64,000 nt of DNA from Phycisphaerae bacterium (lineage in GTDB: Bacteria > Planctomycetota > Phycisphaerae > Phycisphaerales > UBA1924), in contig JAUILU010000006.1 in the NCBI GenBank assembly GCA_030432905.1, forward strand, positions 62,001 through 126,000, in the 5' to 3' direction. The notes beneath the pieces were generated by a model. It saw only the letters and a list, made by a program, of their open reading frames with translations. It ran no database searches and had not been told where the DNA came from. Each line of letters begins with the position of its first letter. Positions within the stretch are counted from its first letter, which is position 1. Below are positions 13,064 through 47,588 of the stretch, piece by piece. The position numbers and the translations under genes are program-made.

Positions 13064-14488
13064 TTAGAAAGCCGAGATTAGCGCGAGAATGGCCGCCATG
13101 ATCGCCGCGGCACCGCTCAAACGTCCGATTAGTAGGTGCCGACTCGCCATCGACTCGGCCTTGCGGAGCTCGCCCTTGAGCACGTCGTAGCGGACATGCA
13201 GGGCAGACATCGCCTCGATCGTGTCCGAGTATTGCTGGGTCCGCAGGCTCGCACGCCTGCGTGCACGCATGACGATCGCGTGTGCCTTCTCAAGCGAAAG
13301 CTCGGCGGATTCCATCCGCTCCTTGTACTGATCCGCACGGGCGTCGGCACGCTCCATCTGCTCGTGCATGTACGCCGCCTCGGTGTTGCGGGCGTCGAGC
13401 TCGGCTTGGAGCGAGGCACGATCGGCAAAGTCTTCTGTCTTGATCGGCTCAGCAACGACGGGCATCGGGGCCTGCTCCGCTGGCTGGCCGCCGACCTGCT
13501 GCGAGAGCTTGGCGATGGTCTGGTCGCGCTCGGCGAGCCGACCCGAGAGCTCGGCCATCTCGCTGCGTGCCGAGTTGATCTGAGACTGGGTCTCGGCCTC
13601 GGCTTGCTTGAACGCCTCGATCTTCTCGATTAGTTCCGCGTTGGCGGCTTCGAGTTCCTCGGCGCGCGAATCGCTCGATTCAACACGCGTCTCGATCTCG
13701 GCCAGCTGTTCGCGTGCGATCGTCACCGCGGCCTGCGCCTCCGACAGCCTCGTCGAACGCTCAGCCAGTTCCTCGCGCACGTCAGCGAGCTGGCCCTCGG
13801 CATGCTCGAATTGAGACAGCGCCTCGTCGCGTTCCTCGGCCGTCGCGGCGAGCTCTTCGGTCAGCTTCAGCAGGTTCGATTCGTGCTTGGCAGCCTGCGT
13901 CGTAAGCTCGTCGAGCTGTGATTTGAGTTCGTCTGCGAAGGCTTCGAGTTCGCTCGCGCGAGTCGCCGCGTCGTCGAGCTGCGATTCCAGCTGCTGCTGG
14001 ATGGCCTCCGACTGCGACTGGTGCTCGGTCAATTCCTTGCGGAGCGTGCTGGCCTCGCTGTTCGACTCCTCGATCTTCAGCTTCAGTTCCGCGATCGTCT
14101 GCGACTGCGTGGTGTTGAGCTTGAGTTGCTCGTCGATCTCGGCCTTCTTCGCCTTCAGCTCGTTGGCTTGCTCGGCGGCGACGTCCCACACGCGCTCGGC
14201 TTCTTCGAGACGGTCCGACGCCAGACGGTTCGCGTGACGCAGCTCGCCCTCGACGGACTTGATCTGCTCCGCGGCGCCCTGCAGGCGGTGCTCAAGATTC
14301 GTGATCTGCTCGCTGAACTCGGCGATCGCCAAGGCGTGCGATTCGCGGAGCTGCTTCGGTGATTCCTCGCCGAGGATGTCGAGCGCTTCCATCGCGATCA
14401 TCTCAACACGGGCGAGCTTGCCCTCGGCGATCGAGTCTGCCGGGCCGGTGGTTCGGGACTTCGTCTGCTGATTCTTGTGCGATGCCAC
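13064..14488 (-). CDS. long coiled-coil protein with C-terminal TM segment
   Basis: 474 aa, E/A/L/Q-rich heptad-like throughout; hydrophobic C-terminus (LLIGRLSGAAAIMAAILALISAF). Confidence 0.75.
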   Translation of the reverse strand: MASHKNQQTKSRTTGPADSIAEGKLARVEMIAMEALDILGEESPKQLRESHALAIAEFSEQITNLEHRLQGAAEQIKSVEGELRHANRLASDRLEEAERVWDVAAEQANELKAKKAEIDEQLKLNTTQSQTIAELKLKIEESNSEASTLRKELTEHQSQSEAIQQQLESQLDDAATRASELEAFADELKSQLDELTTQAAKHESNLLKLTEELAATAEERDEALSQFEHAEGQLADVREELAERSTRLSEAQAAVTIAREQLAEIETRVESSDSRAEELEAANAELIEKIEAFKQAEAETQSQINSARSEMAELSGRLAERDQTIAKLSQQVGGQPAEQAPMPVVAEPIKTEDFADRASLQAELDARNTEAAYMHEQMERADARADQYKERMESAELSLEKAHAIVMRARRRASLRTQQYSDTIEAMSALHVRYDVLKGELRKAESMASRHLLIGRLSGAAAIMAAILALISAF

Positions 14489-14716
14489 GTCTTTGATCTC
14501 CGGAACAAGCTCTTATTGGGCTACTCCGAAGCCAACAACGGCACAAACCGCCCGCCAGATCAGTCGCAGACACGAACTGCTCAGCGATAACGATGACGGA
14601 CCAAGCGGTCCGCTTGCTGGTTGTGCCGCCGGCTCCCCGGATGTGGAGTCCTACGCTCAGCAGTGACCAAGACCGCGCTCCAATCAGAGTCTCAGCACAC
14701 GGGCCACAATACAGGC

Positions 14717-15739
14717 ATGATCTTCGGTCTCGTGACCGTTGTGCTCACGCTGGTGGGGTGGTCGGTGACGCCGCTGTTCATCAAGCACTTCTCTCACGAG
14801 ATCGACGCGTGGACGAGCAACGGCTGGCGTTACGGGTTCGCCGCGTTCGTGTGGGCGCCGTACCTCATCTACGGCGCCAAACGCGGCAAGCTCCCTCCCA
14901 AGCTCTTCCTCGCGGCGCTCGTGCCCGGCGCGATCAACAGCATCAGCCAGGTCGCGTTCACCTGGGCGCACTACAAGATCGACCCCGGGCTGCTGACGTT
15001 CGGCTTGCGGGCGCAGATGGTCGTCGTCGCCTTCGGAGCCGCGATCCTGTTCCCGATCGAAAGGCTGGTCATCAAGAAGCCCGCGTTTCTGGCGGGGCTT
15101 CTTCTCGTTGTGCTCGGCACCGCGGGCACGATCCTGTTCGACAACGACTTCGGCGCCAAGTCCAACACGCTCGGCGTTCTGCTCGCGCTTGGCGCCGGCG
15201 CCGGGTTCGCGTTCTACGCGCTGGCGGTCCGCTACTTCATGGTCGGCATGAGCCCGCTCTACTCGTTCGCCGCGATCAGCCAGTACACCGCGGGCAGCAT
15301 GGTCGTCCTGATGCTCATCTTCGGCGACAAGTTCGGCGTCACGACCCTCGACATGTCGGCAGACCAGATCGCGTGGCTCTTGATCTCATCAATCATCGGC
15401 ATCGCCGCCGGGCACGTGCTGTACTACATCAGCATCGCCCGCCTAGGCGTCGCGGTCTCGACGGGTGTGATCCAGCTCCAACCCTTCTGCGTCGCGATCC
15501 TGTCCTACATCTGGTTCGGCGAAGTGCTCGAATCCTCGCAATGGATCGCAGGCGGGATGGCGGTCACCGGGGCCGTCACGATGCTGGTTGTTCAGCACAT
15601 CACGACGTCACGCCTGAAGAAGCGGGCTGGCGATGAGTCGATGGAACTGCCGGCGGATCATGTGGCGGCGGCGGTTGAGTGTGAGACTATGGAGCCACAT
15701 TCCGGGCATGTGTCTGAAACGAGTCCTGTTAGCGAATAG
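14717..15739 (+). CDS. EamA/DMT family transporter
   Basis: ~10 TM segments; start moved to Met at 14717 (MIFGLVTVVLTLVGWSVTPLFIKHF). Confidence 0.85.
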   Translation: MIFGLVTVVLTLVGWSVTPLFIKHFSHEIDAWTSNGWRYGFAAFVWAPYLIYGAKRGKLPPKLFLAALVPGAINSISQVAFTWAHYKIDPGLLTFGLRAQMVVVAFGAAILFPIERLVIKKPAFLAGLLLVVLGTAGTILFDNDFGAKSNTLGVLLALGAGAGFAFYALAVRYFMVGMSPLYSFAAISQYTAGSMVVLMLIFGDKFGVTTLDMSADQIAWLLISSIIGIAAGHVLYYISIARLGVAVSTGVIQLQPFCVAILSYIWFGEVLESSQWIAGGMAVTGAVTMLVVQHITTSRLKKRAGDESMELPADHVAAAVECETMEPHSGHVSETSPVSE

Positions 15740-16281
15740 CCACAACTAAGGCATGCATTAGATTTCTCACTACGAATGATCTTGTGGGCTTTATGTAACG
15801 CGAAGTGCCACAGAAACAACAGCGTTAACGCGGCCCAAACCCCTTGCCATGGACTGAAGTCAGGGTGCATGATGCGATGGGAAGCGGCGGCACTCGCCAA
15901 AGCTATAAAAATTGAGTAAGGCAGGATCGCAAGTGTTGAACGTACAGAATGCCACATTAGGTGGTGGTGTACTAAGCAGATCAGAAACGGGAATTGAAAC
16001 GCCGTGTACCAAACAATGTTCCCGTTGAGCGGGATATTTGATTCGAAGCAATAGGTGTGAAGCGAATGGGTCTTCATGACGAGCAGGGGCGTAGAGATTG
16101 CAACAAGCAATCCAAATGCGGACTCGCGAGCAGTCTTAGTATGCTTGCGACCAATCTTTGCTTGAATACGGGTTTGCTTGTTGCGGTTAGACCATACTTC
16201 CCAAGATATAACGCTGAATGGCACCAGCGAGATAGCGGGTATAACAAGGGATGTGATGTCGATTGGTCCACTGAAGCTCAT
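15658..16281 (-). CDS. hypothetical membrane protein with C-terminal zinc ribbon (CLSCGYSLTGL...CPECG)
   Basis: 207 aa; several hydrophobic helices; CxxCGYxLxGLxxxxCPECG, common in planctomycetal proteins; locally AT-richer DNA. Confidence 0.65.
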   Translation of the reverse strand: MSFSGPIDITSLVIPAISLVPFSVISWEVWSNRNKQTRIQAKIGRKHTKTARESAFGLLVAISTPLLVMKTHSLHTYCFESNIPLNGNIVWYTAFQFPFLICLVHHHLMWHSVRSTLAILPYSIFIALASAAASHRIMHPDFSPWQGVWAALTLLFLWHFALHKAHKIIRSEKSNACLSCGYSLTGLVSDTCPECGSIVSHSTAAAT

Positions 16282-16320
16282 GTAGCAATTTACGCACTAC
16301 AAGCTAGGGAGTTGCTTTAA

Positions 16321-17649
16321 TCAGCGGATAGACACTCTCCAAGCTTTGCCTTCCCGCTCCACCCGCCTGTACAGCGTGTCCCGCTCGACCGGCTCGTACC
16401 CGGCTTCGCGGATCGCACGCTCAAGATCCCACACAGTTGTCTCTTGGTGCGTGGTCTGGCCGCCGACTTTGGTGATGTCGTACCAGACGACCGTGCCGTC
16501 GATGTCGTCGGCGCCGGCCTTGAGCATGAGCTGGCTCATCGCGAGCGTCTGCATGATCCAGAACGCCTTGGTGTGTGGGAAGTTGTCGAGCATGAGCCTG
16601 GCGACCGCGAGCGTGCGGAGGTTTTCTAACCCGGACGGGCCGTAGAGGTTCTCGAGTTCCGAGCCGTCGGGGAAAAATGGCAGGGGCGTGATGGTCTGGA
16701 AGTACCCGCCGCCCGATGCCATGTCGGGGTGGGGGAGCTTTGAGTCCTCGCGTGTGAGCGTGATCGCATCGACCGAGTTGTCGTCGATGCCCTCGTACTC
16801 GCCCGAGTACTTCCGCCAGTCGGGGTCGCCTGTGTAGCCGAGCCGCGCGAGCGCCTGGTCCTGTGCCCTGCGGAGCATGTCCATGTGAACGAGCCGGTCT
16901 TTGCGCTGCTCGATGTGGCCGTACAGAATCGTGCAGTTGGTGTTGAGCCCGAGCTCGTGCGCAACGGTGTGCACATCGAGCCACGCGTCGTGGCGGATCT
17001 TGCCCTTGAAGGCCTCGTCGTGGACGCGGTCGTCGAAGACCTCCGCGCCGCCGCCGGGCAGTGAGCCGAGACCCGCGTCCTTGAGTTCCTGCAGCACCCA
17101 CCGGATGCCGGCCTTGCGGTCGTCGCGCTTGAACTTTTTGGCGATTTTGGCTAGGTGCACGATCTCGACCGCGGTGAACGCCTTGATGTGCAGCTCGCTG
17201 CCCGCTTTGTCAACGACCTCGCGGATGGCGCGGCACATGTCGGGGTAGTAGTCCCAGGGCAGGTAGGGGTGCAGGCCGCCGACGATGTGCATCTCGGTCG
17301 CACCTGAGTCGATGGCCTTCTGGGCTTCGGCTCGGATGTAGTCGAGGTCGCGCGTGTAGGCGCCGTCTTCGTCTTTCTTTCTGAAAAATTCGCAGAATTT
17401 ACAACTCAGGGCGCAGACGTTGGAGTAGTTGAGGTGGCGGTTGATGTTGTAGTACGCCACACCCGGGTGCATGCGATCACGGACGAGGCTGGCCAGCTCG
17501 CACACGGACCAGACGTCGGGCGTGGAGTACAGCAGCTCGCCCTCTTCGAGCGACAGGCGCTGACCCGCGAGGATCTTGGCCCGGATCGCCTCCAGGCCTG
17601 GGTCGGTCTTGGTCGAGCGGGCGAGCGTTGGGCTGGCGAGCGTGGTCAT
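16321..17649 (-). CDS. mqnE: radical SAM aminofutalosine synthase-like protein (MqnE/CofH family)
   Basis: NVCALSCKFCEFFRKKDEDGAY radical-SAM CxxxCxxC motif, HIVGGLHPYLPWDYYPDM, TNCTILYGHIE; start set at MTTLAS (17649). Confidence 0.85.
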   Translation of the reverse strand: MTTLASPTLARSTKTDPGLEAIRAKILAGQRLSLEEGELLYSTPDVWSVCELASLVRDRMHPGVAYYNINRHLNYSNVCALSCKFCEFFRKKDEDGAYTRDLDYIRAEAQKAIDSGATEMHIVGGLHPYLPWDYYPDMCRAIREVVDKAGSELHIKAFTAVEIVHLAKIAKKFKRDDRKAGIRWVLQELKDAGLGSLPGGGAEVFDDRVHDEAFKGKIRHDAWLDVHTVAHELGLNTNCTILYGHIEQRKDRLVHMDMLRRAQDQALARLGYTGDPDWRKYSGEYEGIDDNSVDAITLTREDSKLPHPDMASGGGYFQTITPLPFFPDGSELENLYGPSGLENLRTLAVARLMLDNFPHTKAFWIMQTLAMSQLMLKAGADDIDGTVVWYDITKVGGQTTHQETTVWDLERAIREAGYEPVERDTLYRRVEREGKAWRVSIR

Positions 17650-17757
17650 GCGGGCGGTTCTTTCAATGATTCTTGAAAACATAATAGGCTTGGCCTGTGC
17701 GGGGTGCGCATTCTCGGCCGTCGTGCAGCCTGAACAGGCGGTATAGATGGGCGTTTC

Positions 17758-17792
17758 GGCTCTAACTTTGCCGTCCAAATGGGGTTAGAGCC
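17758..17792. repeat. perfect 9-bp inverted repeat GGCTCTAAC-N17-GTTAGAGCC
   Basis: 17758-17766 and 17784-17792 are exact reverse complements in the divergent intergenic region. Confidence 0.7.
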
Positions 17793-17826
17793 AATCTGTG
17801 GGCCTGTGGATCCGATGAATCGAGTG

Positions 17827-17862
17827 CCTGTTCCGGGTGATCGCCCGGACAGTCTGAACAGG
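17827..17862 (+). promoter_or_regulatory. nested hairpin whose 3' arm overlaps the predicted SD of the 17871 gene
   Basis: CCTGTTC(17827-33)...GAACAGG(17856-62) with inner CCGGG/CCCGG; AGGAG at 17860-17864, ATG at 17871. Confidence 0.5.
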
Positions 17863-17870
17863 AGCTGCCC

Positions 17871-18410
17871 ATGTCAATGGCCACCAGTGGACGTCCGAGT
17901 TTCGGTCTCGGGAGCAATTCGCAGGACGATGCCAAGAAGCTCGGCGTCAGGAAAAAGATCAGCCGCGGTGTCATCGGCATGACGCTCTCGGCGGTTGTCT
18001 GGCTCTTTGCCCTGGGCACCGCGTCCAAGTGCATTATCTTCGCCGAGCAGGTCTACAAGGGCGGCATGGCGGAGTTCTTCAGCGCCAGACTCGGCGGGCT
18101 GACATTCCCGCCGTTCGGGCTCCACTACGAGGGTCAGCTCGGCGCGGTCATCGCCGGCGGTCAGGCGCTCGCCGTGTTGGCTGGCCTTGGCATGTCGCTC
18201 TCGCCCGCATCGGGTATGCGCCGTCTCGGATCGATGATCCTGATCGCGTGGGCCGGGCTTTGGATCGCCGGTGCATCGAGCCTCGTGATGGAGGTCCCGA
18301 GCTCGGAGATGGTCATCATCACCGCCGCCTCGGGCGTGGTGTTCCTCTGCACGATCTACCGCGGCCTGCACCTGTGGAACAACAAGAAGCCCAAGCACGC
18401 CAAGGGCTGA
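17871..18410 (+). CDS. hypothetical membrane protein (179 aa)
   Basis: ORF with SD AGGAG and several hydrophobic helices. Confidence 0.65.
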   Translation: MSMATSGRPSFGLGSNSQDDAKKLGVRKKISRGVIGMTLSAVVWLFALGTASKCIIFAEQVYKGGMAEFFSARLGGLTFPPFGLHYEGQLGAVIAGGQALAVLAGLGMSLSPASGMRRLGSMILIAWAGLWIAGASSLVMEVPSSEMVIITAASGVVFLCTIYRGLHLWNNKKPKHAKG

Positions 18411-18411
18411 G

Positions 18412-18954
18412 TTACGAAGGCCGAGATGCGTCAGGCCCGAGCACACCGACGACGGTTCGCGCACACGGCTGGTCGATCGCCCGGAGCACGCCCGCGCAGA
18501 TCTCTTTGTGAGTCAGCCATCGGCTCTGGTTCGGTTCGATCACAAAGCCCAGCAGCACTGTTTCAGCGCCCGCATCGGAGTCTTCCGGTGCGGGTGTTTG
18601 TGTATGGCCGCTGCCCAGCACGCGGATGCGCTGGGCGTCTCCTGCGGCTTCGCGGACGGCTCGCTCAGCCGCGCTTGCGTGACTGTGGATCCATGTCACC
18701 CACAGCGCGGGTTGTCCCTGACCGCCGATCGCCCGTTCGATACCCGATTCGAGCGACCCGGGCTGGGAGTAGTCGCACTCGAATACGCGGATGGCCGGCC
18801 CCATGTCGCGTTCGTGTCGTGCAAGCGCAGAGACCCGCCAACCACGCGAGGCCAGTGTGCGGCAGACCCCAGCCAGCATGCCCGTGCCCCCGACGATCAG
18901 GGCGTGGTCGTGCTCTGGTTGGTCCGGTTGCTGTTCGATGGCACAAGCGTACAG
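18412..18954 (-). CDS. short-chain dehydrogenase-like NAD(P)-binding protein, probably non-ATG start
   Basis: The frame extends upstream of the track start to include [32 protein letters not shown] (Rossmann GGTGMLAG); no ATG/GTG/TTG in the short upstream frame, CTG at 18954 possible. Confidence 0.6.
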
Positions 18955-19108
18955 GGTCTGCCAGATCGGCAGAAGTGGGGCGGCGGATCGCCGATCGGGC
19001 GGTCAATTCGGGCGTTCTGACCCCGGAATCGTCGATTCTGCTCTTGGCACCGGGCTTGCATTCGTTTGGGCAGTCGCGTCCCCCGCGGCCAATTCGGAGG
19101 TACACACA

Positions 19109-21010
<1,902 letters not shown>

Positions 21011-21032
21011 GCCGCAGGATTCGGCACACTAC

Positions 21033-21069
21033 CAGGCCCGTTCCGTCATGGAGCGGGCCTGTTTGTTTT
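21033..21069 (+). terminator. intrinsic terminator after dnaK
   Basis: CAGGCCCGTTCC-gtcat-GGAGCGGGCCTG stem followed by T-rich tttgttttt. Confidence 0.85.
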
Positions 21070-21080
21070 TGAGCTCTGGC

Positions 21081-21737
21081 TTAGAGGTGTTCGATCTTGT
21101 GCGCCATGATTCGCGACGCCGCGCCGCGATGACTCAGCTTGTGCTTGAGCTCGGGTTCGAGTTCGGCGCTGGTCGTGATGTCTTCCGGAGCGACAAGGAA
21201 GATCGGGTCGTACCCGAAACCGAACTCGCCCCTTGGCACATCGCCCGGCTTCCCGATCGCGCCCTCGAACGTGCCGACGGCCTCAGCGAGCACTTCGCAC
21301 CCGTTCCCGCCCTGTGAAGGCCCGGCAAGACACATCGCGCAGACGAATCGCGCCTGCCGATCCGCGATCACCCGGTCGCCCAGAACATCCAGCAGCTTTT
21401 TGTTGTTGAGTGCATCGCGCTGTTCGCGGGGAAGATCGCTCGGGTCGATGTCGCAGCTGTAGCGGGCGCTGTACACGCCCGGCGCACCGTCGAGCGAATC
21501 GACGACCAGACCCGAGTCATCCGCGAGGCACAGCCGGCCTGTCTGCTCGGCGTACCCGATCGCCTTGATGCGCGCGTTCTCTTCGAAGGTCGATCCCGTC
21601 TCTTCGGGCTCGGTCAGGTCCATCCCGAGATCGCTGAGTGAGATGATCTGGACCCCGATCTCGTCCATGATCTCCTGAAGCTCGCGGACCTTCTTGGGGT
21701 TCCCGGTCGCAAGGACGATTGGCTCGGTGATGGTCAT
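21081..21737 (-). CDS. rdgB: non-canonical purine NTP pyrophosphatase (RdgB/HAM1 family)
   Basis: LATGNPKKVRELQEIM, ADDSGLVVDSLDGAPGVYSARYS, GFGYDPIFL, LSHRGAA; start moved to Met at 21737. Confidence 0.95.
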   Translation of the reverse strand: MTITEPIVLATGNPKKVRELQEIMDEIGVQIISLSDLGMDLTEPEETGSTFEENARIKAIGYAEQTGRLCLADDSGLVVDSLDGAPGVYSARYSCDIDPSDLPREQRDALNNKKLLDVLGDRVIADRQARFVCAMCLAGPSQGGNGCEVLAEAVGTFEGAIGKPGDVPRGEFGFGYDPIFLVAPEDITTSAELEPELKHKLSHRGAASRIMAHKIEHL

Positions 21738-21773
21738 GGACGACTGTAGGGTTCGGCGGAGCAAGAATGATCC

Positions 21774-22955
21774 ATGACCACCGACCGCCGGCGTGACATC
21801 GCAGAATCCGCAGCCTCGAAACTTGCGGGCCTCGAATCCGGGGATCTGTCCGGGGTGCGAGCGGTCGTGGGCTTTGACGGCTTCATCGACTCGATCATCC
21901 GGGTCGTCGATCAACGCCACTCGATGAAGCCCGACGACTTCCGCCCAGTGACCACGATCACCGGGTTCGCCGATCGGTGCGCCGCTGCAGCGGGCAAGAG
22001 CACGAACATGGAACTTCACGTCGTCGAGCGGCGATTCGGCGGCAACGGGCCGCTCTTCGCCTCCGCGATGGGGAGCCTCGGTGCTTCGGTCACGTTCATC
22101 GGTGCCGTGGGCTCGCCCGACGAACCGACGCTGCTCAGTCCTGTCTACCAGCCGATGGCTGACCGGTGTGAGCGCGTGTTCCCGGTTGCGCCCGCCGCGA
22201 GCACTGATGCGCTCGAGTTCGACGACGGCAAGCTCATGCTCGGCAAAACCGCGAGTGTCCAGGCTGTGAGCTGGCAACTGCTCAAGCAAACAGTGGGGCT
22301 CGACACACTCATGGAACTCTTCGAGCGATCAACCACGATCGGAATCGTCAACTGGGTCATGCTTCAGGGCGTGGAAGGGATCTGGCGTGGTCTCATGGAC
22401 GAGGTGCTGCCCGAGCTGACTCGGGACACACCTCGCCGGATGTTCATCGATCTGTGCGACCCAGCGAAGCGCACCGACGAGGATGTGCGCCGCGCCGCGG
22501 GGTTCCTGACCGAACTCAACAGCCACGTCCAACTCACACTCGGGCTCAACCAAGCCGAGGCGGAGCGGATGGGGCAGATCCTGGGTGTTGACATCTACGA
22601 AGGGCCAGGCAACCAATCGCTCGGTTCCGCGATGCAGCACGCCGCTGCTTCGATCCGCGCCAGGCTCGGGATCTCGTGCTGCGTCGTCCACCCGCGCGAG
22701 GGCGCAGCGGCAGCAGATACTCAGTCCTCAGCATGGTTCGAGGGTCCGTTCACAGCGAGGCCCAAAATCTCCACAGGCGCGGGCGATCACTTCAACGGCG
22801 GCTTTGCACTCGCCCAGGCGCTGGGGCTCAGCCTCGACGAATGCCTCGCGGCAGGGTGCGCTACGAGCGGTGCGTACGTGCGTGACGCCGCTAGCCCCGG
22901 AATAGAGCGTCTCATCGAGTTCCTGCGGGACCTGCCGAGGTCTCAGGTCGGCTAA
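21774..22955 (+). CDS. PfkB-family carbohydrate kinase
   Basis: GNGPLFASAMGSLGASVTFIGAVG and STGAGDHFNGGFALAQALG (PfkB signature 2). Confidence 0.85.
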   Translation: MTTDRRRDIAESAASKLAGLESGDLSGVRAVVGFDGFIDSIIRVVDQRHSMKPDDFRPVTTITGFADRCAAAAGKSTNMELHVVERRFGGNGPLFASAMGSLGASVTFIGAVGSPDEPTLLSPVYQPMADRCERVFPVAPAASTDALEFDDGKLMLGKTASVQAVSWQLLKQTVGLDTLMELFERSTTIGIVNWVMLQGVEGIWRGLMDEVLPELTRDTPRRMFIDLCDPAKRTDEDVRRAAGFLTELNSHVQLTLGLNQAEAERMGQILGVDIYEGPGNQSLGSAMQHAAASIRARLGISCCVVHPREGAAAADTQSSAWFEGPFTARPKISTGAGDHFNGGFALAQALGLSLDECLAAGCATSGAYVRDAASPGIERLIEFLRDLPRSQVG

Positions 22956-44075: not shown

Positions 44076-44083
44076 TATTTGTT
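44076..44083. repeat. left 8-bp target-site duplication TATTTGTT
   Basis: Identical to 46333-46340, immediately outside the left TIR. Confidence 0.9.
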
Positions 44084-44122
44084 CGGGAGTATGTACCTGT
44101 TGAAAATAACAAATCTTCACCC

Positions 44123-44151
44123 TTGACAGAGTAGTTTTCATCAAGTATCAT
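44123..44151 (+). promoter_or_regulatory. sigma70-like promoter of the transposase
   Basis: TTGACA (44123-44128), 17-bp spacer, TATCAT (44146-44151); ATG at 44158 lies at the predicted +1. Confidence 0.7.
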
Positions 44152-44157
44152 GTTAGC

Positions 44158-45126
44158 ATGACACGCAAGAAACCATGCAAAGTTGGCCAGAACAAGTCCG
44201 AGATCGTCCGCGACGTTCCCCTCGCCTGTGCCGACGAGCAGGCCGCCGTTGAGTTCATGGAGAAGCGCCGCTGGGGCGATTCGCCGTGCTGCCCGTGCTG
44301 CGGCTCGGTTGACGTGTACAAGATGACCAAGCGCGGCTCAGACGAGCGTGAGCAGCACTTCCGCTGGCGTTGCCGGGACTGCGCCAGCCTCTACAGCGTC
44401 CGCAAGGGCACCGTATTCGAGGACAGCCGTATCCCCATGCGTCACTGGTGCTTCGCGTTCTGGGCGGCGTGCTCGTCCAAAAAGGGTGTCTCGGCCAAGC
44501 AGATCGAACGCCAGACGGGCCTGAGCTACAAGTCGGCCCTGTTCCTCATGCACCGCATCCGCTTCGCCATGCAGGACACGTCAGGAGACAAGCTGACCGG
44601 CGTGGTTGAGGCAGATGAGACTTTCGTCGGCGGCAAGCCACGAAACAAGACCAAGCAGATCGACAGCGGCAAGCCGGGCAGCAGCCACCGCACACGCTAC
44701 ACCCGCAAGACTCCGGTGTTCGCGGCTGTCGAGCGTGGAGGGCGCGTCGTGACTCGCGTTATCCCCCGCGTCAACGCCAAGAACCTGCGCCAAGCCATAC
44801 TTGACACCATCGACGTGTCGGCACGCCTGATGACCGACGAGAACGTCTGCTACGTCGTCGTCGGCAAGCAGTTTGAGGGTGGGCACGAATCGGTCCCGCA
44901 CAAGAACCACGTCTACGCGAAGGGTGACGTTACCACCAACACGATCGAGGGCTTCTTCTCACTCGTCAAGCGCGGTATCTACGGCACGTTCCACGCGGTC
45001 AGCAAGAAGCACCTGCACCGCTACATGGACGAGTTTGCGTTCAGGTACAACACTCGCAAGGTTGACGACGGGGAACGCATGAGACTGGCTGTAGAAGGGG
45101 CTGTGGGGAAGCGGTTGGTTTACTAG
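44158..45126 (+). CDS. IS1595-family (ISXO2-like) transposase
   Basis: N-terminal zinc ribbon CCPCCGS...WRCRDCASLYSVRKGTVFEDSR; VVEADETFVGGK; NTIEGFFSLVKRGIYGTFHAVSKKHLHRYMDEFAFRYNTR. Confidence 0.95.
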   Translation: MTRKKPCKVGQNKSEIVRDVPLACADEQAAVEFMEKRRWGDSPCCPCCGSVDVYKMTKRGSDEREQHFRWRCRDCASLYSVRKGTVFEDSRIPMRHWCFAFWAACSSKKGVSAKQIERQTGLSYKSALFLMHRIRFAMQDTSGDKLTGVVEADETFVGGKPRNKTKQIDSGKPGSSHRTRYTRKTPVFAAVERGGRVVTRVIPRVNAKNLRQAILDTIDVSARLMTDENVCYVVVGKQFEGGHESVPHKNHVYAKGDVTTNTIEGFFSLVKRGIYGTFHAVSKKHLHRYMDEFAFRYNTRKVDDGERMRLAVEGAVGKRLVY

Positions 45127-45137
45127 AATGCTCTAGA

Positions 45138-45302
45138 TCAGGGCACGGCAACAGCACTACGAAGCCGAGAGAAAAAATTCTTCTGTTCCCTCTTCTTCTC
45201 TTTACTGATTCGATCAAGAATCTCCTGCTGCTGGTCCCGGATCTTTTTGATCGCTTCTGTCCGGTTGAATTTCTTTTGTGGTGTTTTCGTGCTTTTTGAC
45301 AT
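45138..45302 (-). CDS. small basic passenger protein (54-62 aa)
   Basis: MSKSTKTPQKKFNRTEAIKKIRDQQQEILDRISKEKKREQKNFFSRLRSAVAVP; track start 45326 also possible; overlaps the 265-aa ORF out of frame. Confidence 0.5.
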   Translation of the reverse strand: MSKSTKTPQKKFNRTEAIKKIRDQQQEILDRISKEKKREQKNFFSRLRSAVAVP

Positions 45303-46011
45303 GGGAATAACCTCTTGCCGCTTCACCGGCTGGCCCGGGCTCGACTTGTGATGCCGAATAAGTTACCAAACCAATCACTACTATAACACTCGCAAACGCA
45401 GCCAACAATGCCAGTGAACCTAGTTCAAGCCGTTTCCGGACCCTCCTGTTCGCATCCGCCAGCCTCATGTAGGCTAGTCGGGCCTCTTCTATACGCTGGG
45501 TTAACCAGTCTAGTTCGGGACCCATATTGCTGACTTCGTTTGGGTCGCCGTACAACACAACTAGTGCCGCACCAAACAGTTCTCTTGGGTCATCGTTCTC
45601 AGTTTCGCTTTCTTCAGCGTCTTCTTCTTTGGAAGACTTCGCTCGCACCTTCATTAAGCCCGAAAATACCCACCCTGATATGGGTGTCGGATCTCGTTCC
45701 AATGCAAGCAAAAATATCGCAATCACTAGCGCGAGCAGCCCAAATATAAACACACAGCCAACAATTAACGCCAAAACGGGCGTGTGTTGCAGACCCTCAG
45801 CTAAATCTCCAATCGACTCAACTTTAAAGAATCCCAAGCCAACTACCACAGCCAAAAGCGATAGCTTCGTTTTGCGGTCGTCTACCATTTTGGCCGCAAA
45901 ACTGCGCTCGTCATCAAGCAAATACTTGATTTGCACAAGTAGCTCTTTGGCGTACGATTCGTTACGAATCGACTTTTCTTCACTATTCTGAGCTTCTGGA
46001 TCGGGTGCCAC
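45214..46011 (-). CDS. passenger membrane protein (265 aa, 2-3 predicted TM)
   Basis: KLSLLAVVVGLGFF, TPVLALIVGCVFIFGLLALVIAIFLLAL, GSLALLAAFASVIVVIGLVTYSAS hydrophobic segments; acidic central loop. Confidence 0.7.
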   Translation of the reverse strand: MAPDPEAQNSEEKSIRNESYAKELLVQIKYLLDDERSFAAKMVDDRKTKLSLLAVVVGLGFFKVESIGDLAEGLQHTPVLALIVGCVFIFGLLALVIAIFLLALERDPTPISGWVFSGLMKVRAKSSKEEDAEESETENDDPRELFGAALVVLYGDPNEVSNMGPELDWLTQRIEEARLAYMRLADANRRVRKRLELGSLALLAAFASVIVVIGLVTYSASQVEPGPAGEAARGYSHVKKHENTTKEIQPDRSDQKDPGPAAGDS

Positions 46012-46065
46012 ACGTGTTGCATCGACACAGTATTTGCAAACACAGCAAATTTGTGCAAATCAAAA

Positions 46066-46233
46066 CTATTGATCGTCAAGTCCGGTCGATTTGCCACCTT
46101 TCGGCCATCCACCCTCTGGCCGCTTCTTCTCCAACGCCGTGTCGATAGCGTCCTCAAACTCCATATCGATCGCGAGGCGCTCCGGTTCCGGCCCGGTCTG
46201 CTTCTTCTCCGCTTTCTCTTCATTCATCGGCAT
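46066..46233 (-). CDS. small passenger protein (55 aa)
   Basis: Read directly: MPMNEEKAEKKQTGPEPERLAIDMEFEDAIDTALEKKRPEGGWPKGGKSTGLDDQ*; below the track cutoff. Confidence 0.65.
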   Translation of the reverse strand: MPMNEEKAEKKQTGPEPERLAIDMEFEDAIDTALEKKRPEGGWPKGGKSTGLDDQ

Positions 46234-46331
46234 CCTTGCATTCTACCCGCCCGCTAATGGCGCGGCAGGATTATAGGCGGATGTTCGGAGAATGGTCGAG
46301 CGGGGTGCGGTTTCAATAGGTACATACTTCC

Positions 46332-47588
46332 CTATTTGTTTGCAAAAAATTCGGACGTTCCTGTCGCCTCGTGGGCCTCTGCGAGTCGATTCAGGCCGAT
46401 GGCGTACGCAGCGGTTCGAAGGTCGATCGACTTGTCCTGAGCGAGTTCCCAGACCGAACGGAACTCGGACGACATCTTTGCCTGAAGCCTGTCGTGCACC
46501 TGATCAAGTGTCCATGCGTACCCCGCCCGGTTCTGGGTCCACTCGAAGTAGCTGACGGTGACGCCGCCCGAGTTTGCGAGCACGTCGGGGATGGTGATGA
46601 TCTCGCGTTTGCTGATGGCGTCGTCCGCGTCGTTGGTCAGCGGGCCGTTGGCGAGTTCGATGATGACCCTGGCTTTGACGTCGGCTTGGTTGTCAGCCGT
46701 GATGGTGTTCTCAAGCGATGCGGGTACGAGGATGTCAACATCCAGTCCGAGCAGGTCTTCGCCAGAGATTTCCTTGCCGTCGCCGGAAAGTTTGCGGGTG
46801 TTGTTTTTGGCATCTATGACCGATGCGACGTCGAGCCCGTCCGGGTTGTGCAGGCCTGTGCGAGAATCGCAGACCGCGACAACGTTGTAGCCGGCCTCGC
46901 TTGCGAGCTTGGCAAAGAGCTGCCCCGCATTGCCGAAGCCGTGGATCGCGACTGAGAGGTTGCTCGGTTTCCAGTGCTTGATTTTGACGAGTTCTTGAAT
47001 CTGGTAGAACCCGCCTCGCGCGGTCGCGTCGTCTCTGCCGACCGATCCCCCGAGCGCGACTGGCTTGCCGGTGATGACTGCGGGTGAGCGTTTGCCCGCG
47101 ATGACTGAGTATTCGTCCATCATCCAGGCCATGATGGTCGCGTTGGTGTAAACGTCCGGCGCCGGGACGTCGGTTTCCGGGCCGACGACGCCCGAGATGG
47201 CGCGCATGAAACCGCGGCTGAGTCGTTCGAGTTCGGCTTTGCTGAGCTTGCGAGGATCGACGATTACGCCGCCCTTGCCGCCGCCGAAGGGGATGTTGGC
47301 GACGGCGCACTTGATGGTCATCCAGAACGCGAGCGCCATGACCTCTTCGCGGCTGACGTCCGGGTGGAAACGGATGCCGCCCTTGCCGGGCCCACGTGCG
47401 TCGTCGTACAGGCAGCGGTAGCCGGTGAAGACCTGTTCGCTGCCGTCGTCCATCCGGACGGGGATATGGACTTCGAGACATTGCTTTGGTTGGCGGAGAC
47501 GGCTCACAGTCTCGGCGTGCGCGTTTGAGAACTTGGCAGAGGTGTCGAGACGCTTGATGGCGTTGGTGAACACATCGTTTGCTGACAT
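46332..47588 (-). CDS. gdhA: glutamate dehydrogenase (Glu/Leu/Phe/Val dehydrogenase family)
   Basis: GPGKGGIRFHPDVSREEVMALAFWMTIKCAVANIPFGGGKGG, VAIHGFGNAGQLFAKLA. Confidence 0.95.
   Translation of the reverse strand: MSANDVFTNAIKRLDTSAKFSNAHAETVSRLRQPKQCLEVHIPVRMDDGSEQVFTGYRCLYDDARGPGKGGIRFHPDVSREEVMALAFWMTIKCAVANIPFGGGKGGVIVDPRKLSKAELERLSRGFMRAISGVVGPETDVPAPDVYTNATIMAWMMDEYSVIAGKRSPAVITGKPVALGGSVGRDDATARGGFYQIQELVKIKHWKPSNLSVAIHGFGNAGQLFAKLASEAGYNVVAVCDSRTGLHNPDGLDVASVIDAKNNTRKLSGDGKEISGEDLLGLDVDILVPASLENTITADNQADVKARVIIELANGPLTNDADDAISKREIITIPDVLANSGGVTVSYFEWTQNRAGYAWTLDQVHDRLQAKMSSEFRSVWELAQDKSIDLRTAAYAIGLNRLAEAHEATGTSEFFANK
46333..46340. repeat. right 8-bp target-site duplication TATTTGTT
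   Basis: Identical to 44076-44083, immediately outside the right TIR. Confidence 0.9.

Follow-up and report, generated by a model that had tools for sequence, protein, structure and literature searches.

Passenger-carrying insertion sequences of the IS1595 family are known from the ISNha5 group. The family comprises the groups ISPna2, ISH4, IS1016, IS1595, ISSod11, ISNwi and ISNha5, and its members have been described with a single transposase gene (PMC8101967). Here we describe an IS1595-family element in a 64,000-nucleotide stretch of DNA (the window) from a Phycisphaerae bacterium. It resembles the family in its transposase domains, the N-terminal zinc ribbon and the DDE triad, in an 8-bp target-site duplication (TSD) and in terminal inverted repeats (TIRs) that start near GG. 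In contrast to the family as described (PMC8101967), the window element possesses a conserved second small gene and an exchangeable passenger, and most of its relatives additionally carry a tRNA. These extra genes do not exclude membership in the family, since the single gene is given there as the usual state. We have little doubt that the locus represents a complete, probably transposition-competent IS1595 element which arose by one 8-bp-staggered insertion at the 3' end of a glutamate dehydrogenase (GDH) gene and which combines a core accessory gene with an exchangeable passenger.

The element occupies positions 44084-46332 (2249 bp, about 2.25 kb), is bounded by its TIRs and is flanked by an exact 8-bp TSD (Table 1). 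Both the position of the TIRs with their identity of 19/22 and the duplicated octamer on either side had been proposed in a first-pass annotation, and both proved exact when the sequence was rechecked. The TIR pair is the first entry among the inverted repeats of the region. By itself, a 19/22 inverted repeat is without significance, with an expectation of about 0.8 per 64 kb for repeats within 5 kb; the figure falls to about 1e-5 once an exact 8-bp repeat is required at its flanks. When the whole window was searched exhaustively for inverted ends set between 8-bp direct repeats, a single pair exceeded 14/22 matches, the element's own, and this pair encloses a transposase gene. The genome itself (3.4 Mb in 12 contigs) had been suggested as a place to look for other copies, and neither a second transposase copy nor any further or solo TIR, with up to three mismatches allowed, was detected there. 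As the element is single-copy in this genome, there is no direct sign of recent activity.

Evidence for an insertion comes from G513, a genome of the same genus, in which GDH (81% amino acid identity) directly adjoins a DUF1573 gene (68%) with no insertion in between. The joined flanks of the window (...AGGTTATTTGTTTGCAAAAAATTCGG...) align with the corresponding G513 sequence (...GGATTATGTGTTTGTAAAAAATTCGG...), where the target octamer occurs once (TATGTGTT) with one difference from the window. The lack of an empty-site allele in relatives had been named as an argument against transposition, and the orthologous DUF1573-GDH junction of G513, which is free of the element, provides such an allele. 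In the window, GDH ends in TAG (46332-46334), a stop codon to which the element contributes its last base: the joined flanks read AAC AAA TAA and, with the element, AAC AAA TAG. Since both junctions end at the same codon, the GDH protein is left unchanged by the insertion.

Table 1. Features of the window element and its insertion site (TSD, target-site duplication; TIR, terminal inverted repeat)
Feature	Position	Strand	Basis or remark
Left TSD copy, TATTTGTT	44076..44083	no strand	Octamer single in G513 empty site (TATGTGTT)
Left TIR, CGGGAGTATGTACCTGTTGAAA, 22 bp	44084..44105	+	Consensus CGGAAGTRTGTACYT common to relatives
Promoter-like site, TTGACA-17-TATCAT	44123..44151	+	11/12, consensus match only; just upstream of transposase start
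IS1595-family DDE transposase, 322 aa	44158..45126	+	PF12762, PF12760 and NF033547 matches; alignment
Small ORF overlapping passenger 3' end	45138..45326	-	Coding status doubtful
Variable passenger, 265 aa, predicted all-helical membrane protein	45214..46011	-	ORF; GTG start uncertain
Accessory small gene (GPEPERL...EDAIDTALEKKRPEGGWPK), 53-55 aa	46066..46233	-	Element-specific family
Promoter-like site, TCGACC-18-TATAAT	46270..46299	-	10/12, consensus match only; upstream of small gene
Right TIR, reverse complement GGGAAGTATGTACCTATTGAAA, 22 bp	46311..46332	-	19/22 versus left TIR
Right TSD copy, TATTTGTT	46333..46340	no strand	Overlaps GDH stop codon
Flanking glutamate dehydrogenase (GDH) gene	46332..47588	-	Sequence, domain match, G513 comparison

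A transposase search of 251 genomes of the order yielded 16 loci (the window among them) from 15 genomes, and six loci were obtained from GTDB contigs, some of which belong to the same genomes as the transposase-search set; in all, 33 loci including the window were examined. The ends of the relatives follow CGGAAGTRTGTACYT, then GTTGAAA or GACGCAA. A perfect 8-bp TSD (8/8) together with the same class of ends was found at 19 of the 33 loci, the window and 18 others, a count in which a few single cases are perhaps over-fitted because the TSD score helped to pick the end pair, and most of these pairs were first seen by TIR matches alone. Other transposase copies with non-matching ends, which had been considered as evidence against the proposed element, did not emerge, since matching TIRs and 8-bp TSDs are present at the 18 other loci. 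Four elements (L043:9703, L045:3129, L026:2770 and L048:4662) have a chromosomal tRNA gene no more than a few kb away (tRNA-Leu in three cases, tRNA-Thr in one), and a preference for tRNA-gene neighbourhoods as targets is possible.

The window transposase matches PF12762 at 2.4e-40, PF12760 at 7.8e-9 and the NCBIfam IS1595 model NF033547 at 1.6e-55. Across 25 aligned homologues, residues C45, C48, C72 and C75 of the zinc ribbon as well as D153/D227/E264 are invariant, and the window protein is full length and retains every one of them, so that the DDE_Tnp_IS1595 domain with its triad and the N-terminal zinc ribbon are both present. Thus, the assignment as a complete IS1595-family element is upheld by the domain matches, the empty site and the agreement of the relatives' ends.

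Outside the transposase ORF lie 1280 of the 2249 bp, in line with the earlier estimate of about 1.2 kb. The first-pass annotation regarded this DNA as passenger cargo, which is correct in part; another part is an accessory gene conserved throughout the family, which had been missed. The passenger of the window is predicted to be a real gene from the length of its ORF and was probably acquired horizontally. Its G+C content is 48.9% with a GC3 of 0.46, compared to 61.6% and 0.83 for the transposase. No homologues of the passenger were found in 294 Planctomycetota genomes, plasmids, IMG/VR, Pfam, NCBIfam, PADLOC or the PDB, and its AlphaFold model is of low confidence (pLDDT 57). At other loci, the passengers belong to DUF3800 (L004, L044) or are DUF5343-like, below the Pfam cut-off (L007), consist of an HTH protein plus an IrrE peptidase (L021, L046), or contain NYN (L009, with a PADLOC HEC-09 match at 5e-67), P63C (L024), Panacea/SocA (L050) or GAF (L023) domains. 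This pattern suggests that passengers may be exchangeable between elements and often resemble defence or toxin-antitoxin genes. The L050 passenger is similar to Panacea (SocA-like) toxin-antitoxin systems (PMC8832971) in that PF13274 is found beside a small predicted membrane protein; the feature is confined to this one relative, and the window passenger is devoid of PF13274.

Homologues of the small gene, encoding about 50-90 residues, occur at 15 of the 16 transposase-selected loci (the exception is L051), and every complete relative except one carries such a homologue. When 400 genomes of the order were searched with a profile, the gene turned up in 28 genomes at 29 loci, 26 of which adjoin a transposase, while two are situated on short contigs and one is L131. 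At the latter (L131:4824-6267 in G638), the small gene is accompanied by a UGG tRNA, a DUF3800-like ORF and a TIR-like end, with no transposase; the locus has no defined right end and is perhaps a non-autonomous derivative. A phylum-wide scan of 392 genomes revealed no convincing stand-alone copy. The protein consensus, KPGPxPERLKIDGDWEDAVxKALxKxxPxxGWP, corresponds to no family in Pfam, NCBIfam or PADLOC and to nothing in IMG/VR, and a comparison with the PDB gave a chance-level match only. Strand and position of the gene relative to the transposase vary, and it always resides inside the element. Because it is constant within the elements, we take it to be a core accessory gene, and our guess is that it most likely encodes a small factor for transposition or element expression.

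According to the explanation that we favor, a single insertion with an 8-bp staggered cut placed the element at the extreme 3' end of the GDH gene; the N-terminal part of the transposase would recognize the TIRs, the enzyme would carry out DDE chemistry, and all DNA between the TIRs would move as a single unit. The non-transposase half consists of the core accessory gene and one exchangeable passenger, here a low-GC membrane protein; relatives have other genes in place of this passenger, and most of them also carry a chimeric tRNA that is absent from the window copy. That the 1.28 kb of non-transposase DNA might instead be ordinary chromosomal sequence trapped between unrelated inverted repeats could be considered because an inverted repeat of 19/22 is no rarity in itself; yet the idea is contradicted by the empty site and is at odds with the exact TSD, the matching ends of the relatives and the conserved small gene, leaving it virtually no credibility. 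More weight, but still that of an unlikely explanation, can be given to an old immobile remnant whose transposase or ends are dead and whose passenger persists or decays by chance. The single copy in the genome, the three mismatches in 22 TIR positions and the stop codons inside the transposases of the relatives L022 and L025 would fit such a remnant, whereas the full-length window transposase with all invariant residues, the 8/8 TSD and a sister species that is free of the insertion argue for the intact element.

A related question is whether the small gene might serve the passenger rather than transposition, that is, as its antitoxin or regulator. In the window it immediately precedes the passenger, shares its strand and follows a promoter-like site, and several of the relatives' passengers resemble toxin-antitoxin genes. 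However, the small gene stays constant while the passenger changes completely, and its position and strand vary relative to both transposase and passenger. We therefore regard this role as doubtful, albeit slightly less so than the immobile remnant, and retain the core accessory gene as the preferred reading.

In the relatives, a type II tRNA of 84-104 nt was detected inside the element at 16 loci by ARAGORN and a covariance model (at a few of them one end of the element is not defined or lies beyond the contig), and 11 of the 16 transposase-selected loci contain one. Such tRNAs are located at L005:5769-5855, L021:6486-6569, L023:6097-6181, L024:8864-8948, L044:4837-4922 and L047:4634-4728 and at ten more loci. 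The anticodon is UGG in 14 of them, UUA (reading UAA) in L023 and UAG in L047, the last having a Ser-type body; the best match among the host tRNAs is Leu for 15/16 and Ser for 1/16. A complete cloverleaf and a body of one isotype with the anticodon of another are both found in the relatives. Across 12 element tRNAs, 99.6% of the cells are paired in the cloverleaf, and 52 two-sided changes compare with a shuffled mean of 14 (0/500 shuffles). Thus, the element tRNAs behave as real, structure-selected tRNAs. All twelve aligned sequences have A as the discriminator base. Both tRNA-bearing hosts that were examined, G220 and G407, also possess normal Leu tRNAs, and type I tRNA-Pro(UGG) genes of the ordinary kind occur among the chromosomal loci inspected. 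Since bacterial LeuRS is independent of the anticodon, the element tRNAs are predicted to be charged with leucine and to misread CCA and CCG. They are similar to allo-tRNAs and other non-canonical tRNAs (reviewed in PMC7609411) in that the anticodon does not match the body. In contrast to allo-tRNAs with their altered 8/4 or 9/3 acceptor/T-arms, however, the element tRNAs display the normal 7/5 arrangement, and they combine a Leu body, A73 and UGG within IS1595 elements of defined ends. A literature search, with subscription papers mostly outside its range, gave no match for transposon-encoded tRNAs of this kind, and an earlier description is possible.

The window element is different in this respect: ARAGORN, an unfiltered covariance model, Rfam and a cloverleaf scan detected no tRNA within its TIRs, and it also lacks the short UGG tRNA-like sequence of some relatives. 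These sequences of about 70 nt (L004:7110-7200, L007:7040-7128, L129:3788-3880 and L130:5928-6020) keep UGG in an anticodon-like loop and an acceptor/T-arm-like fold, with no full tRNA at these loci. The distribution of the tRNA over the transposase tree forces at least four changes, so that one common origin is unsupported. We also rejected the idea that the element's transposase needs CCN to be read as Leu, as Pro does not take the place of a majority Leu in any alignment column and CCA/CCG use is not markedly shifted. Two otherwise intact transposases, L022:4386-5336 and L025:6225-7169, contain one in-frame stop each (TAG and TAA, respectively), and both elements carry a UGG tRNA, which would not suppress these stops. 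Dense tRNA arrays were observed in G407 (C1, about 2040000-2048500) and G220 (C32, about 13700-22000); they include unusual 74-76-nt 'Leu' tRNAs and are possibly of phage origin.

The window element thus belongs to a known IS family; new are the conserved accessory gene and, at the level of the family, the chimeric tRNAs, which are the surprising part. Ends, TSDs and the empty site define a group of passenger-carrying Planctomycetota IS1595 elements with a conserved accessory gene outside the families of Pfam, NCBIfam and PADLOC. It might tentatively be speculated, at somewhat less than even confidence, that this lineage carries a kit of transposase, small protein and, in most members, a codon-reassigning tRNA (a Leu body with UGG, sometimes a UUA suppressor) along with defence-like passengers, that the tRNA puts Leu at Pro codons and thereby serves the element, and that the window copy has lost it. 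If so, the tRNA might serve, for example, to addict the host, to cause mistranslation during stress or to act against phages. Should the relatives' tRNAs be functional, genes able to change how proline or stop codons are read would be spread by an insertion-sequence lineage, and mobile DNA would have a new route for influencing host translation.
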